From positions 1-29,559 of the IMG/VR virus record IMGVR_UViG_3300028025_002882: a stretch of DNA of 29,559 nt. One strand, given 5' to 3'. The stretch comes from a virus. Position numbers and translations under genes: made by a program. Below the pieces are notes generated by a model. The model did no database searches and had not been told where the DNA came from. It was given only the letters and a program-made list of their open reading frames with translations. Of the stretch, positions 3,818 through 10,051 are shown one piece after another (position 1 is the first letter of the stretch; each line of letters starts with the position of its first letter).

Positions 3818-3848
3818 AAAAAATCTGCTGGCATTTCTGCCAGACAGA
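3818..3848 (-). terminator. Strong intrinsic terminator with GAAA loop
   Basis: CTGGCA-GAAA-TGCCAG, extended by TCTG/CAGA across one bulged base, followed by TTTTTTGGGCAAAAAA on the minus strand. It ends the 161-aa gene transcript. Confidence 0.85.
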
Positions 3849-6469: not shown

Positions 6470-6598
6470 TTAGGCTACCCTTACCTTAGCGTCTGGGTGT
6501 TCTCTTAGGAATGAAGAGATGTCGTAGATGTGAATAGCAGAAACAACCTTAGAGCCGTTTAGTGTGTATTCGAATAGTGTGTATCTTGACTTTGGCAT
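6470..6598 (-). CDS. Small hypothetical protein, 42 aa
   Basis: Starts MPKSRYTLFEYTLNGSKVVS, ends DAKVRVA. Reads as a short beta-alpha-beta unit. AAAGGG lies about 8 nt before the ATG. Its leader contains the paired RNA element at 6621-6682. First gene of a three-gene unit. Not recognised. Confidence 0.7.
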   Translation of the reverse strand: MPKSRYTLFEYTLNGSKVVSAIHIYDISSFLREHPDAKVRVA

Positions 6599-6620
6599 TA
6601 GTAGCCCTTTCTTAGTTTGA

Positions 6621-6682
6621 AGGATTTATTTGCTTAGGCTCATTCGAACATTTGTTCGACTTATTTGCTAAGGCTCATTCCT
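6621..6682 (-). ncRNA. Structured leader RNA element A
   Basis: Minus-strand RNA. Order: AGGA, UGAGC, CUUAG, CAAAUAA, UCGAAC-AAAU-GUUCGA hairpin, UGAGC, CUAAG, CAAAUAA, UCCU. CUUAG pairs with CUAAG and AGGA with UCCU, so each UGAGC strand faces a CAAAUAA strand as an internal loop. Lies in the 5' leader about 22 nt before the 42-aa gene. Elements B (8315-8386) and C (9802-9864) share the loops with different but still complementary stems. I do not match it to a known RNA family. Confidence 0.7.
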
Positions 6683-6706
6683 ATTTATTTATTTTGTTAT
6701 GTTCCT

Positions 6707-6729
6707 AGTATAAGGGTGACCACCGACAT
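6707..6729 (-). promoter_or_regulatory. Early promoter module 13
   Basis: ATGTCGGTGGT (6719-6729), 6 nt, TATACT (6707-6712). Transcribes leader A and the 42/36/48-aa unit. Confidence 0.8.
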
Positions 6730-6793
6730 TTTAGGGAGGTTAGGGGGTGTTTTGAGCCATTGTTACCAAACTGTTACATTTGAATTTTTGGGC

Positions 6794-6824
6794 AAAAATT
6801 TTGGGGTATCCCTTGCGAGATACC
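6794..6824 (-). terminator. Intrinsic terminator with GCAA loop
   Basis: GGTATCTC pairs with GGGATACC (one G-U) around the GNRA loop GCAA, then CCAAAATTTTTGCCCAAAA on the minus strand. Ends the 76-aa gene transcript. Confidence 0.75.
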
Positions 6825-6830
6825 ACCAGA

Positions 6831-7061
6831 CTAAACGCTAGGGCAGTAGTCAATACTCCTAGATTTAGTTGATAGCCCATTCTGTTCCAGAATGAGAGTG
6901 TGTTCCCATTTTCCAACTAGGCTTGAATTGGTTACTCGTTCATTACAAACCGAGCAGTTACCAAACCATAGGCGGTTATCTTTTCGGTATCCGTCAGCAG
7001 GGTTTAGAACACTAAATCCGTTGCCGATACCCTTTTCTCTAATTTCCCAAAAATCACTCAT
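6831..7061 (-). CDS. Hypothetical protein with Cys pairs, 76 aa
   Basis: Start at 7061 (MSDFWEIREKGIGNGFSVLN) with AAAGGAAACC before it; longer starts are rejected. CSVC near residue 36 and a final YCPSV give three Cys, a possible zinc-ribbon-like site. The ATG overlaps the stop of the 55-aa gene (ATGA). Last gene of a four-gene unit (7518 to 6831). Function unknown. Confidence 0.75.
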   Translation of the reverse strand: MSDFWEIREKGIGNGFSVLNPADGYRKDNRLWFGNCSVCNERVTNSSLVGKWEHTLILEQNGLSTKSRSIDYCPSV

Positions 7062-7225
7062 TTGGTTTCCTTTCTGTTTTCTAAAATCTTTTCCATTTGC
7101 TCTTTGGTTAGGTGAGCGGTTGCGATACCCCAAAGGATAGCGTAGGTTAGGTCTAGGCGATTAGGGTTTTGCTCTTTTACAATCGCTTCAATCTCGTTTT
7201 GGATTTCGCTGAAAGTCTTTTCCAT
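7058..7225 (-). CDS. Helical hypothetical protein, 55 aa
   Basis: Preferred start MEKTFSEIQNEIEAIVKEQN at 7225. Two in-frame starts further up are possible: 7237 (MENKMEK) and 7276 (MSAPTAKLNLSK), the last directly after the stop of the 33-aa gene. I prefer 7225 because the preceding AAAAGAAATGGAAAATAAA is a repeated initiation cassette (five copies) in which only the second ATG is always the true start. Mostly amphipathic helices, with LTYAILWGIATAH in the middle. Not recognised. Confidence 0.65.
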   Translation of the reverse strand: MEKTFSEIQNEIEAIVKEQNPNRLDLTYAILWGIATAHLTKEQMEKILENRKETK

Positions 7226-7276
7226 TTTATTTTCCATTTCTTTTGATAGGTTCAGTTTAGCAGTAGGGGCAGACAT

Positions 7277-7378
7277 TTATTTGAAACGCTTGTCTATACG
7301 CTTGTCTGTCCAGTAAACAATTATCCAAATTGCACGAACAATGCCAACCTGAGAGATTAGAGTTTTTAGTCTTTTCAT
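7277..7378 (-). CDS. Basic single-span membrane peptide, 33 aa
   Basis: Starts MKRLKTLISQVGIVRAIWII and ends TDKRIDKRFK. A hydrophobic stretch (about residues 7-24) lies between basic ends, which would suit a membrane-inserted or membrane-surface peptide. It sits between the 42-aa and 55-aa genes. No strong Shine-Dalgarno; AGGAATAACTA precedes the ATG. Confidence 0.55.
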   Translation of the reverse strand: MKRLKTLISQVGIVRAIWIIVYWTDKRIDKRFK

Positions 7379-7389
7379 TAGTTATTCCT

Positions 7390-7518
7390 TTACTTTACAC
7401 ATCGGTTACATAGAAACTTGTTGCCAGCGATTTTCATTATCTTCAAAAAGTCAGCAGGGCGAGAGCAGATAACGCAAGGGTTTTGACGGCTCTCAGCAGG
7501 GGTTAGTTTGATTTTCAT
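7390..7518 (-). CDS. Mini zinc-ribbon protein, 42 aa
   Basis: Starts MKIKLTPAESRQNPCVICSR and ends KFLCNRCVK. CVIC and CNRC are 18 residues apart, a typical zinc-ribbon spacing. The ATG overlaps the TGA of the short frame ATG AGA AAT AAA TGA within the repeated initiation cassette. First gene after promoter module 14. Probably binds nucleic acid or protein via zinc; family not recognised. Confidence 0.7.
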   Translation of the reverse strand: MKIKLTPAESRQNPCVICSRPADFLKIMKIAGNKFLCNRCVK

Positions 7519-7548
7519 TTATTTCTCATTTCTTTTGTTCTTACTCTA

Positions 7549-7571
7549 AGTATAAGGGCAACCACCGACAT
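7549..7571 (-). promoter_or_regulatory. Early promoter module 14
   Basis: ATGTCGGTGGT (7561-7571), 6 nt, TATACT (7549-7554). Paired GTTACGA motifs with an 11-bp period lie upstream (7603-7620). Confidence 0.85.
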
Positions 7572-7631
7572 TTATTATCTCAAACACGCCTTTTCAGCCT
7601 ATTGTTACGAATTGTTACGAAAAATTTGCCC

Positions 7632-7654
7632 AAAAAATGAGGAGATTTCTCTCC
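7632..7654 (-). terminator. Intrinsic terminator with GAAA loop
   Basis: GGAGA-GAAA-TCTCC, then TCATTTTTTGGGCAAA on the minus strand, after the 31-aa Cys-rich gene. Confidence 0.8.
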
Positions 7655-7663
7655 CCATCCGTT

Positions 7664-7759
7664 CTACCAGTTGTTAGGGTCGTGAGGGTCGTGAGAGTTT
7701 GAGTAGAGGTCAGCAATGGAGTCGCAACCACAGCAAGGGCGGTCTTCGCAATCACACAT
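7664..7759 (-). CDS. 31-residue Cys/His-rich peptide
   Basis: Begins MCDCEDRPCCGCDSIADLYS. Five Cys in the first 12 residues are followed by the repeated HDPHDP near the C-terminus, giving many metal ligands in a tiny protein. AAAGG lies 10-11 nt before the ATG at 7759. Single-gene unit from promoter module 15. Could bind zinc or another metal; no family known to me. Confidence 0.6.
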   Translation of the reverse strand: MCDCEDRPCCGCDSIADLYSNSHDPHDPNNW

Positions 7760-7792
7760 AGGGATAGCCTTTCATAGGGGATAGATAAGATA

Positions 7793-7815
7793 AGTATACC
7801 AAGACCCACAGACAT
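7793..7815 (-). promoter_or_regulatory. Early promoter module 15
   Basis: 11-mer variant ATGTCTGTGGG (7805-7815), 6 nt, TATACT (7793-7798). Drives the 31-aa peptide gene. Confidence 0.75.
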
Positions 7816-7860
7816 TTACAAGCCTGGTCGGTAACAGATTAGTAACGAAAAATTTGGGCA

Positions 7861-7885
7861 AAAAATTTGAGGGTATTGCTACCCA
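7861..7885 (-). terminator. Intrinsic terminator with GCAA loop
   Basis: GGGTA-GCAA-TACCC followed by TCAAATTTTTTGCCCAAA on the minus strand, after the 64-aa gene. Confidence 0.8.
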
Positions 7886-7890
7886 CATTT

Positions 7891-8085
7891 TTATTTACGA
7901 GCGTTAGCAATCATCTCGCCAGCAATTCTGTATGCTTCCGCATCAAAATCAGTTCCAGCAATTCTGTAATTTACTAATTCAGTAATTCCGTCAAAACACT
8001 TTTCTTTTAAATCAAATCTAAAATACTTAGCGTTCCCCTTGTATGTCATTCCACACTTAGGGCATTCAGCAATATATTTTTCCAT
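7891..8085 (-). CDS. Zinc-ribbon-like hypothetical protein, 64 aa
   Basis: Start MEKYIAECPKCGMTYKGNAK at 8085; an in-frame ATG 12 nt upstream belongs to the repeated initiation cassette. One CPKCG knuckle near residue 8 and a single Cys at 30, followed by helix (YRIAGTDFDAEAYRIAGEMI). The first half resembles the start of many zinc ribbons, but the second Cys pair is incomplete. Last gene of a unit with the 56- and 47-aa genes. Function unknown. Confidence 0.7.
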   Translation of the reverse strand: MEKYIAECPKCGMTYKGNAKYFRFDLKEKCFDGITELVNYRIAGTDFDAEAYRIAGEMIANARK

Positions 8086-8116
8086 ATTATTTCTCATTTC
8101 TTTTTTAGTTATTTAT

Positions 8117-8287
8117 TTAGTTTTCGTTTTCAAGTCTACGCTTGATTATGTTGATTGCGTATTGAAGACCAACGCAAACATCACATTCTTTTACATCTTC
8201 ATTACAAGTGTGAATAGAGTTTTGGATTTCTTGAATTATCTTCCAGCGTTCAACTTCTCTGGTTAGCATTTCAATTCGTTCGTTCAT
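8117..8287 (-). CDS. Helical Cys-containing protein, 56 aa
   Basis: Starts MNERIEMLTREVERWKIIQE: a likely coiled-coil first half, then CNEDVKECDVC and a basic helix (INIIKRRLENEN). The Cys spacing (C-x6-C-x2-C) could bind metal. The ATG overlaps the TGA of a four-codon frame (ATG GAA AAT AAA TGA) in the repeated initiation cassette. RNA element B lies between this gene and the 47-aa gene. Confidence 0.65.
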   Translation of the reverse strand: MNERIEMLTREVERWKIIQEIQNSIHTCNEDVKECDVCVGLQYAINIIKRRLENEN

Positions 8288-8314
8288 TTATTTTCCATTT
8301 CTTTTTATTGTTGC

Positions 8315-8386
8315 GATTAGTTTTTTATTTGCTAATAAGTTTATTTGCGATTTCTCGGCTCACCTTATTAGGCTCACAAACTAATC
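8315..8386 (-). ncRNA. Structured intercistronic RNA element B
   Basis: Minus-strand RNA with a nearly continuous stem: GAUUAGUUU/AAACUAAUC (9 bp), an internal loop UGAGC facing CAAAUAA, CUAAUAAG/CUUAUUAG (8 bp), a second UGAGC facing CAAAUAA, and a CGA-GAAA-UCG tip. This copy shows most clearly how the two strands oppose each other. It starts 8 nt after the 47-aa gene stop and ends about 27 nt before the 56-aa gene, so it may control that gene separately. Confidence 0.75.
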
Positions 8387-8394
8387 AAGTTTAT

Positions 8395-8538
8395 TTATTT
8401 GTAGTTTTTCATTCTTAGCAATTTTGCTAATTCTTCAAACTCAAAGTTAGACATAAAGTCTCCAAATTGAGCAATCCACATCAACTCACGATAACGAGCG
8501 TTTTGTTCGTGTGTTAGTGCTGACTTTACTTTTGCCAT
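8395..8538 (-). CDS. Small hypothetical protein, 47 aa
   Basis: Start MAKVKSALTHEQNARYRELM at 8538, the second ATG of the repeated initiation cassette. Helical and slightly basic, with FEFEELAKLLRMKNYK at the end. First gene after promoter module 16. A longer frame would cross the promoter and is rejected. Not recognised. Confidence 0.65.
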   Translation of the reverse strand: MAKVKSALTHEQNARYRELMWIAQFGDFMSNFEFEELAKLLRMKNYK

Positions 8539-8567
8539 TTTATTTCTCATTTCTTTTAGGTATTTAT

Positions 8568-8590
8568 AGATTAGCAGTTGCCACCGACAT
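8568..8590 (-). promoter_or_regulatory. Early promoter module 16 (weak -10)
   Basis: 11-mer ATGTCGGTGGC (8580-8590). At the fixed 6-nt distance the -10 is TAATCT (8568-8573), a poor match; a better TATAAA lies 5 nt further down (8563-8568). May be a weaker or shifted promoter. Confidence 0.65.
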
Positions 8591-8634
8591 TTAGGGGACA
8601 TTTAGGGGTATGTCGCCTAAGCGTTACCAAATTG

Positions 8635-8718
8635 TTACTTTTTCTTTTCTGCTTCCAACTTGGCGTTATTAGCACGGACGATTTGAGCCATTAGGGCTTT
8701 TAGTTGTTTTTCATTCAT
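8635..8718 (-). CDS. 27-residue basic helical peptide, leaderless
   Basis: Reads MNEKQLKALMAQIVRANNAK then LEAEKKK: one amphipathic helix with a lysine tail. The ATG at 8718 stands 6 nt after the -10 box (TACCAT), so the mRNA probably begins at the start codon. No terminator hairpin follows before the next promoter module. Function unknown. Confidence 0.6.
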   Translation of the reverse strand: MNEKQLKALMAQIVRANNAKLEAEKKK

Positions 8719-8724
8719 ACCTAT

Positions 8725-8747
8725 ATGGTAGCACGACCCACTGACAT
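8725..8747 (-). promoter_or_regulatory. Early promoter module 17, leaderless
   Basis: 11-mer variant ATGTCAGTGGG (8737-8747), 6 nt, TACCAT (8725-8730), then ATAGGT and the ATG of the 27-aa peptide. Confidence 0.7.
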
Positions 8748-8808
8748 TTAAGGGATATATAGGGGTGTTTTGCGTTAGTGTTATCAAACTGTTATCAAAA
8801 ATTTGCCC

Positions 8809-8836
8809 AAAAAAAATGGGGGGTAGTTACCTACCC
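8809..8836 (-). terminator. Intrinsic terminator with GTAA loop
   Basis: GGGTAG-GTAA-CTACCC, then CCCATTTTTTTTGGGCAAA on the minus strand. Ends the 59-aa membrane-protein transcript. Confidence 0.85.
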
Positions 8837-8844
8837 ACCCAGGG

Positions 8845-9024
8845 CTAACGCTTGTCTAGGTAGTCAATCAAGAATGCGAATGCCATAACCATTAGAGCAA
8901 CGCTAACAATCATACCCAAGACAACAACGCTGTATAGGGCAGGGGCAAAGAATACGAAGAATAGCGAGATGAAGCAGATAGGGGCAATGTAGATTAGTAG
9001 GAAGTTACGGATTTCTTTTGACAT
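8845..9024 (-). CDS. Two-span membrane protein, 59 aa
   Basis: Starts MSKEIRNFLLIYIAPICFIS. Two hydrophobic stretches (about 8-27 and 30-52) are separated only by a Pro-containing turn, and the end is charged (DYLDKR), giving a hairpin with both termini probably inside. It is produced from a long leader holding the tRNA-like fold at 9056-9161. It could be a holin or antiholin-like or superinfection-exclusion protein, which is speculative. Confidence 0.75.
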   Translation of the reverse strand: MSKEIRNFLLIYIAPICFISLFFVFFAPALYSVVVLGMIVSVALMVMAFAFLIDYLDKR

Positions 9025-9055
9025 TAGTTATCTTTCTTTTAGGGGGTTACTGCGT

Positions 9056-9161
9056 GGGCTAGGTGAGTAACGCTCTCACACTTATTCAATCTAGTAGGTG
9101 CTTATCTGTTTCCAGTGTAGCGTCCCTAACGCTGTTGATACTCTCTTTGAGTTACTAGCCC
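9056..9161 (-). ncRNA. tRNA-like multibranched leader RNA D
   Basis: Minus-strand 106-nt fold: GGGCUAG/CUAGCCC closing stem (7 bp); UA; ACUC-AAAGA-GAGU arm; AGCGU/ACGCU arm with loop UAGGG; CUG-GAAA-CAG hairpin; GUGAG-AGCGUUA-CUCAC arm (5 bp, 7-nt loop) directly abutting the closing stem as the T arm does in tRNA. Loop UAGG can pair with a downstream CCUA (pseudoknot). It lacks the conserved tRNA D- and T-loop bases, so it is not a normal tRNA. There is no ORF in it. Likely a regulatory leader of the 59-aa gene. Confidence 0.6.
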
Positions 9162-9198
9162 TTATTTAGTTATTTATTCTTTGTTTCTTTATGTTATT

Positions 9199-9221
9199 AG
9201 TATACAGGGGGCTACCGACAT
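9199..9221 (-). promoter_or_regulatory. Early promoter module 18
   Basis: 11-mer variant ATGTCGGTAGC (9211-9221), 6 nt, TATACT (9199-9204). Transcribes the tRNA-like leader D. Confidence 0.8.
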
Positions 9222-9266
9222 TTATTACCATATTAGGTAACGGATTGATAACGAATTTTTCTGGGC

Positions 9267-9303
9267 AAAAATTGGGGGCATATACCAATTAAGGTATATA
9301 CCC
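9267..9303 (-). terminator. Intrinsic terminator
   Basis: GGG-T-ATATACC pairs with GGTATAT-G-CCC (10 of 11) around TTAATT, followed by CCAATTTTTGCCCAG on the minus strand. Confidence 0.75.
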
Positions 9304-9309
9304 ACCATG

Positions 9310-9369
9310 TTACTGATTGATAAACAACCATACGCCTATGCCTATGATGATAAGGGCTACTATCTCCAC
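9310..9369 (-). CDS. 19-residue membrane peptide, GTG start
   Basis: GTG start read as MEIVALIIIGIGVWLFINQ: almost entirely one hydrophobic span. The GTG overlaps the stop of the 54-aa gene (TAGTG), which suggests coupled translation, and a terminator follows at once. It resembles the 22-aa peptide at 2949-3017 in size and composition. A 21-codon frame on the opposite strand exists but fits no plus-strand transcript. Confidence 0.5.
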   Translation of the reverse strand: MEIVALIIIGIGVWLFINQ

Positions 9370-9533
9370 TAGACACCTGCCTTTACACAAGGACACTTAG
9401 CATAGGTGATACGATTACCTTCTAGCGATACATAGCCGATAGTAGAGCATTGCCTACACGCATACGCCTTGATGATAGGCATAGCCTTAGCCTTGACGAT
9501 ACGGATAGCGGTGCGGATTAGAATGTCTTTCAT
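9369..9533 (-). CDS. Basic mini zinc-ribbon protein, 54 aa
   Basis: Starts MKDILIRTAIRIVKAKAMPI, a basic amphipathic helix, then CRQC and CPC 19 residues later. Reads as a helix plus a zinc ribbon, suited to nucleic-acid binding. AAAGAAAGATAA precedes the start, the same leader ending as in the 59-aa genes at 9024 and 9767. Driven by the degenerate module 19. Confidence 0.65.
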   Translation of the reverse strand: MKDILIRTAIRIVKAKAMPIIKAYACRQCSTIGYVSLEGNRITYAKCPCVKAGV

Positions 9534-9565
9534 AGTTATCTTTCTTTTAGTGGGGGTATTACTCT

Positions 9566-9588
9566 ATTATAGCGGTAGCCTACGACAC
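9566..9588 (-). promoter_or_regulatory. Early promoter module 19 (degenerate 11-mer)
   Basis: 11-mer variant GTGTCGTAGGC (9578-9588), 6 nt, perfect TATAAT (9566-9571). The 11-mer differs at three positions but the spacing is kept. Confidence 0.6.
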
Positions 9589-9767
9589 TATGAAGCAGAG
9601 CCAAACCATACTAGGTCACCATTGTCGTCAGTGATACGAACAGATACAGGGGTAGCCTGTGGCTCATTGACCATAGCGGTATAGAATGCGATGATGCTAT
9701 CCTTGTGTGATGGCTCATAGACAGGGTTTAGTGTGTTGCCGTTAGCCCATACGATTGATACGTTCAT
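9588..9767 (-). CDS. Hypothetical protein, 59 aa
   Basis: Starts MNVSIVWANGNTLNPVYEPS and ends DLVWFGSAS. Beta-rich, with one central helix (KDSIIAFYTAMVNE). AAAGAAAGATAAC precedes the ATG. Its leader carries RNA element C (9802-9864). First gene after promoter module 20. Not recognised. Confidence 0.65.
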   Translation of the reverse strand: MNVSIVWANGNTLNPVYEPSHKDSIIAFYTAMVNEPQATPVSVRITDDNGDLVWFGSAS

Positions 9768-9801
9768 TAGTGTTATCTTTCTTTTAGTAGTTATCTCATT
9801 A

Positions 9802-9864
9802 GGAGAGAGACTTATTTGCTAGGCTCACCCTTTCGGGATTATTTGCTAGGCTCTTTCTCTCTCC
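9802..9864 (-). ncRNA. Structured leader RNA element C
   Basis: Minus-strand RNA: GGAGAGAGA pairs with UCUCUCUCC (9 bp); inside are two copies of GAGC-CUAG-CAAAUAA flanking a CCC-GAAA-GGG hairpin. The two CUAG words are self-complementary and can pair with each other, giving the same layout as element A (outer stem, loop, short stem, loop, hairpin). Located about 36 nt before the 59-aa gene start at 9767. Confidence 0.7.
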
Positions 9865-9877
9865 TGCTGATACTCTA

Positions 9878-9900
9878 AGTATACAGGCTACCACCGACAT
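9878..9900 (-). promoter_or_regulatory. Early promoter module 20
   Basis: ATGTCGGTGGT (9890-9900), 6 nt, TATACT (9878-9883). Last module of the series; transcribes leader C. Paired GTTACA motifs with an 11-bp period lie at about 9933-9952. Confidence 0.85.
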
Positions 9901-9966
9901 TTATTATCTAATTAGTCATTATCTATCGTGTTGTTACACAACTGTTACAATCGATTTTTTGCCCAA

Positions 9967-10051
9967 ATCGGGTATGCGTATGGTGTACATTTTCAAACAT
10001 ATCGACTATGCGTATAGGGGTGTGTGCTCACTATATCGGGTATGCGTATAG
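9967..10051. repeat. Three direct repeats, 34-bp period (possible iterons)
   Basis: ATCGGGTATGCGTATGG at 9967, ATCGACTATGCGTATAG at 10001 and ATCGGGTATGCGTATAG at 10035: 17-nt units starting exactly 34 bp apart. Next to them (10070-10160) is a very AT-rich stretch. This is the layout of iterons beside a DNA-unwinding region, at the turn between leftward and rightward genes. Operators of the neighbouring helix-turn-helix gene are the alternative. Confidence 0.6.

Follow-up and report, generated by a model that had tools for sequence, protein, structure and literature searches.

Three structured leader elements in the window

The window is the whole stretch of DNA analyzed here, 29,559 nucleotides at positions 1 to 29,559 of the IMG/VR virus record IMGVR_UViG_3300028025_002882. 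Its minus strand carries three related structured elements, E1, E2 and E3, on the same strand as the neighboring genes to the left of ~10.4 kb. The repeating unit is a module, an asymmetric internal loop in which 5'-UGAGC lies opposite 5'-C(A/G)AAUAA, usually with a purine-purine mismatch on its far side. Modules are stacked between an outer stem (P1), a middle stem (P2) and a tip (P3), and face each other in F-R elements or share one orientation in F-F elements.

6621..6682, minus strand: E1, F-R type, two facing modules with a 5-bp P2 between them
6679-6682 / 6621-6624, minus strand: E1 P1, AGGA / UCCU
6673-6677 with 6626-6632, minus strand: E1 module F, UGAGC with CAAAUAA
6668-6672 / 6633-6637, minus strand: E1 P2, CUUAG / CUAAG
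6661-6667 with 6638-6642, minus strand: E1 module R, CAAAUAA with UGAGC
6654-6659 / 6644-6649, minus strand: E1 P3, UCGAAC, loop AAAU, GUUCGA
6707..6728, minus strand: promoter-like site TGTCGGTGGTCACCCTTATACT upstream of E1
8315..8386, minus strand: E2, F-F type, intercistronic, two same-orientation modules with 8 bp between them
8378-8386 / 8315-8323, minus strand: E2 P1, GAUUAGUUU / AAACUAAUC
8372-8376 with 8325-8331, minus strand: E2 outer module, UGAGC with CAAAUAA
8364-8371 / 8332-8339, minus strand: E2 P2, CUAAUAAG / CUUAUUAG
8358-8362 with 8341-8347, minus strand: E2 inner module, UGAGC with CAAAUAA
8348-8357, minus strand: E2 tip, CGA GAAA UCG
8395..8601, minus strand: open reading frame with its stop codon just upstream of E2
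9276..9303, minus strand: strong hairpin resembling a terminator, between the E3 operon and the next promoter
9802..9864, minus strand: E3, F-R type, two facing modules with a 4-bp P2 between them
9856-9864 / 9802-9810, minus strand: E3 P1, GGAGAGAGA / UCUCUCUCC
9850-9854 with 9812-9818, minus strand: E3 module F, AGAGC with CAAAUAA
9846-9849 / 9819-9822, minus strand: E3 P2, CUAG / CUAG
9839-9845 with 9823-9827, minus strand: E3 module R, CAAAUAA with UGAGC
9828-9837, minus strand: E3 tip, CCC GAAA GGG
9878..9899, minus strand: promoter-like site TGTCGGTGGTAGCCTGTATACT upstream of E3

The observation in the window is real. The strands and stems described in the original prediction were recovered in all three elements, except that the first strand of E3 reads AGAGC rather than UGAGC, a variant shared with a similar element in locus L151. 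Each element had been placed 20-40 nt before a start codon, and the distance from element end to start codon, taken in the minus-strand direction, is indeed ~24-35 nt. E2 is classed as intercistronic because the open reading frame at 8395..8601 (minus strand) stops just upstream of it, and it was compared with copies in the same kind of position in L138 and L151.

In the window, every short operon is equipped with a promoter and a terminator of its own. Between 195 and 9899 on the minus strand lie at least 16 promoter-like sites, in which TGTC(G/A/T)GTGG precedes TATA(A/C)T at fixed spacing; most of these sites stand immediately before small genes. The TGTCGGTGG box of these promoters occupies the position of the -35/-10 spacer, so that it could serve as a site for an activator or as an operator, or else be an atypical -35. 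A further recurrent motif, TTTTTGGGCAAAAA on either strand, is found between operons (e.g. near 3820, 5840, 6170, 6790, 7630 and 8800), in most cases close to a terminator-like hairpin and ahead of the next promoter.

Fold, architecture and occurrence of the family

The bare strand order is present three times in the window and in 0 of 300 Markov shuffles of it. A covariance model (R1), built from 45 sequences that include E1 and E3 and exclude E2, matches the window at exactly the three element sites (E = 8e-18, 5e-16 and 3.5e-7). In the alignment of 45 elements, the paired fraction of stem cells is 88.3% versus 61.3% after shuffling, and the covariation score is 0.546 versus 0.127 for shuffled data (0/500). 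This covariation strongly supports what had been proposed from three copies, an RNA fold under selection that contains a tandem internal loop. Among the matches listed, P2 pairs in all 112 distinct F-R elements, with variants that include CUAC/GUAG, CUAU/AUAG, CUAAU/AUUAG and CUGAG/CUCAG, and P1 reaches at least 4 bp in 91 of the 112 versus 17 when arms are swapped between elements. Among the same listed matches, the strand left unconstrained by the search pattern reads C(A/G)AAUAA in 101 of 102 cases, and an A-G or G-A mismatch lies beyond the loop on the P3 side in 73/112 F-R elements. Facing modules are always separated by a P2 of 4 or 5 bp, the search pattern having permitted a wider range. 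Within interior P1, G-U pairs (9) are no commoner than A-C mismatches (14), so wobble asymmetry gives no confirmation of the sense strand, which is assigned from promoter direction and the fold.

A pattern scan of IMG/VR that demanded three of the four strands exactly matched at least 120 stretches, nearly all of which show the full fold. The distinct elements among the matches listed comprise 112 of F-R type, 13 of F-F type and 27 with three modules in the order F-F-R, these last drawn from a further scan together with the collected loci. The pattern for F-F order matched 44 stretches, about two thirds of them genuine, and the pattern search for the reversed topology, with an R module outermost, returned no matches. 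Scrambled motifs gave one match in 40 trials over 2.2 Mb of collected loci. Two F-R elements in direct succession downstream of one promoter occur at L037 1-400 and in the corresponding part of L050; the second has the variant strands GAGCG and CAATTAA.

The apical hairpin raises the question of whether part of the conservation belongs to DNA. Among the matches listed, P3 is TGTGA-N6-TCACA or close to it in 42/112 F-R elements, and a second promoter of TGTCRG type follows all 42 of these versus 2 of the 70 with another P3. The distance from the palindrome center to the -10 of the second promoter is 52 nt in 39 of the 42 listed cases, and the same distance recurs at 36 of the 52 upstream promoters that have a CRP-type site (among the matches listed). 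We take a CRP-type palindrome at such a fixed distance to fit a class I activator site of the CRP/GlxR type. A tip of LexA-box form, GAAC-N4-GTTC, is found in 4/112 F-R elements among the matches listed, window E1 included; it is seen at TCGAACAAATGTTCGA (6644-6659 of the window) and in the element tips of L062, L071, L135 and L065. The hairpin of one large subgroup thus appears, by its sequence and spacing, to double as a CRP-type operator for the second promoter, and since tips in the CRP- and LexA-type groups also match DNA operators, their P3 complementarity alone is no evidence for RNA. These operator-like tips would suit an array that works at the DNA level, with the fold incidental, an explanation we regard as scarcely tenable: UGAGC and CAAAUAA are not complementary to each other, 66 of the 112 F-R tips among the matches listed resemble neither operator, and the covarying P1 and P2 require folding. 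The rearranged elements furnish the strongest argument for a selected fold over a DNA site, as F-F and F-F-R alter the strand order yet preserve identical folded modules, which only folding explains.

The model R1 at E <= 0.001 matches one to three times in each of 30 related phage records of 11-112 kb, which had been picked for already containing pattern matches. WhiB is reported to be exclusive to Actinobacteriota (PMC10202952) and is encoded in 19 of 29 records; the portal protein of the window is 44% identical to those of Streptomyces phages, e.g. Birchlyn; and the portal, a B12-type ribonucleotide reductase and other genes are common to the window and the compared records. Hosts are therefore probably actinobacteria, and we infer freshwater Nanopelagicales. 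Against isolated phages, BLAST with three versions of the element gave only chance matches of ~20 nt, and R1 did not match Birchlyn or Coruscant, two Streptomyces phages related through portal and capsid protease. GTDB genomes contained four pattern matches, three of them without the full fold. The one real element, L123, is on a 7.9 kb contig (CANHQP010000079.1) of a Flavobacteriia MAG and is the sole R1 match in that 3.4 Mb genome; the contig is probably a misbinned phage fragment.

At the gathering cut-offs Rfam 15 gave no match on the window, permissive comparison of the stretch 6500-10000 gave only chance-level matches (E up to 5), and eight related loci matched tRNAs only, in agreement with the original view that no named RNA family has this pattern. 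Literature searches found no description of a UGAGC/CRAAUAA element. Many related phages, by contrast, hold the further covarying copies that the original prediction called for, recovered with both patterns and R1; neither a lack of such copies nor a known family, the two outcomes named as speaking against it, was found. The family is clearly real, undescribed in Rfam and the literature searched, and so far confined to uncultivated phages apparently infecting actinobacteria. The elements belong to a new family of cis-acting structured RNAs that is found in actinophages, probably freshwater ones.

Promoter placement and candidate functions

Among the matches listed, 100 of 123 elements have a -10-like sequence, by a strict pattern, whose end is 19-47 nt upstream of the first UGAGC, against 13% expected by chance. 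Most of the remaining 23 have a promoter that is recognizable by eye and was missed by the strict pattern, and the true exceptions without a near -10 are E2-like elements placed after a stop codon. Most elements begin within ~40 nt of a promoter -10 and, with transcription starts placed from promoter sequence, appear to begin close to the start of transcription. Within co-directional gene arms, taken as blocks delimited with a simple ORF caller, they are concentrated toward the 5' start (mean relative position 0.21, KS p = 0.00045). Four records (G016, G017, G020 and G027) have elements on both divergent arms, and arms with elements often look early and have small genes.

The 113 distinct proteins encoded first downstream fall into 35 families at E<0.01, and these first genes are small. 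Several of the families (LETF.GS..., EYTLNG..VVSAIH... and ITYS.WQG..., e.g. the window gene from ~6597 on the minus strand, and L003) resemble small beta-beta-alpha-beta proteins and could be distant relatives of each other. Because first genes span 35 families, the element is a portable cassette rather than a gene-specific switch: a real, selected, modular leader RNA. The same spread makes ligand binding, one of the roles first suggested, less likely. Conserved loops in 5' leaders are what a metabolite riboswitch would show, yet that reading is very improbable, given that identical modules are repeated, that the element contains neither a switching partner nor a terminator, and that first-gene families are unrelated where functionally related genes are expected.

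Two further roles had been raised in the original prediction, protection from RNase and binding of a phage or ribosomal protein. In a 5' stabilizer or processing cassette, host RNase E/J would enter or cleave at the A/U-rich stretch upstream, and the stacked element, being rigid, would shield the mRNA behind it. Among the matches listed, 108 of 123 elements have a conserved leader containing AAATA in the 45 nt upstream, which suits this possibility, as do independence from the first gene and placement at the 5' end or between genes, E2 included. It is harder to reconcile with the one to three copies per genome despite many promoters (two of the 16 listed on the window arm are directly followed by an element), and near-invariant loop bases exceed the needs of a stem barrier. 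We hold stabilization to be a tentative explanation, nearly as likely as an RNA that acts on the polymerase.

Invariant loop bases, repeated sites and an inner module found in either orientation would be natural for an RNA-binding protein of phage or host that occupies one site per loop module and switches early transcripts off or on. A second promoter stands directly after many elements and gives transcripts without the element, and these would escape such control. The element leaves the ribosome binding site uncovered, however, and a shared-gene comparison of 10 records (genes common to 9-10) yielded no candidate protein. A protein-controlled switch seems rather unlikely.

Our leading guess, to which we give a probability of about one in three, is that the leader RNA acts on the transcription machinery, by analogy with put of phage HK022. 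The folded leader would dock through its loop modules on the machinery leaving the promoter, either RNA polymerase or a bound factor, and would alter pausing or termination of that polymerase along the gene arm; the put-like action would come about through a different fold from that of HK022 put. An effect on polymerase is favored because the element is tied to promoters and not to genes, occurs in few copies per genome near arm starts, and conserves its loops beyond what a barrier needs, which gives it a narrow lead over mRNA protection and over a protein-controlled switch. The intercistronic position of E2-type elements, the bypassing of many elements by a second promoter, and the separate promoter and terminator of each short window operon count against it. 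The fullest version is improbable as a whole: a modular RNA, independent of protein, whose new, stackable internal-loop motif would let it reprogram the RNA polymerase of actinobacteria at early phage promoters and whose tip would double as a DNA operator for the next promoter.

Comparison with known systems

With its strict spacing rules, the stacked module looks to be a new 3D building block for RNA. It resembles the kink-turn and UAA/GAN motifs in its asymmetric internal loop and likely G-A pair, UAA opposite GAG recalling UAA/GAN. In a kink-turn, a 3-nt bulge leads into tandem sheared G-A pairs; as a candidate it was rejected, since by sequence the tandem G-A signature is absent, the first G-A being replaced with U-A and an extra C being present. 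The EAR element of Bacillus eps operons, which is structured, can occupy an intergenic position within an operon and brings about processive antitermination, is similar to the actinophage element in intercistronic placement (E2) and differs in fold and host. A large, well-supported RNA family absent from Rfam and the literature searched is in itself of interest, and an RNA hairpin that overlaps a CRP-type operator at fixed distance would be an unusual dual use of one sequence.

The closest functional parallel may be the put RNAs of HK022, ~70 nt long and two per genome, which lie downstream of divergent early promoters (PMC9378689), fold into a V of two side-by-side stem-loops with a triplex, and suppress pausing and termination by binding the zinc-binding domain of the RNA polymerase beta' subunit. 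Like putL and putR, the actinophage elements are phage leader RNAs of ~70 nt, few per genome, and they may lie downstream of divergent early promoters: a -10-like sequence is present upstream of most elements, and the early nature of these promoters is judged from position in the arm. The two share no fold, the actinophage element being one continuous rod with a single tip and repeated UGAGC/CRAAUAA loops, and we regard put as a parallel in function and not as a relative. Should the element act on RNA polymerase, put-type control, known from lambdoid phages, would extend to actinophages.
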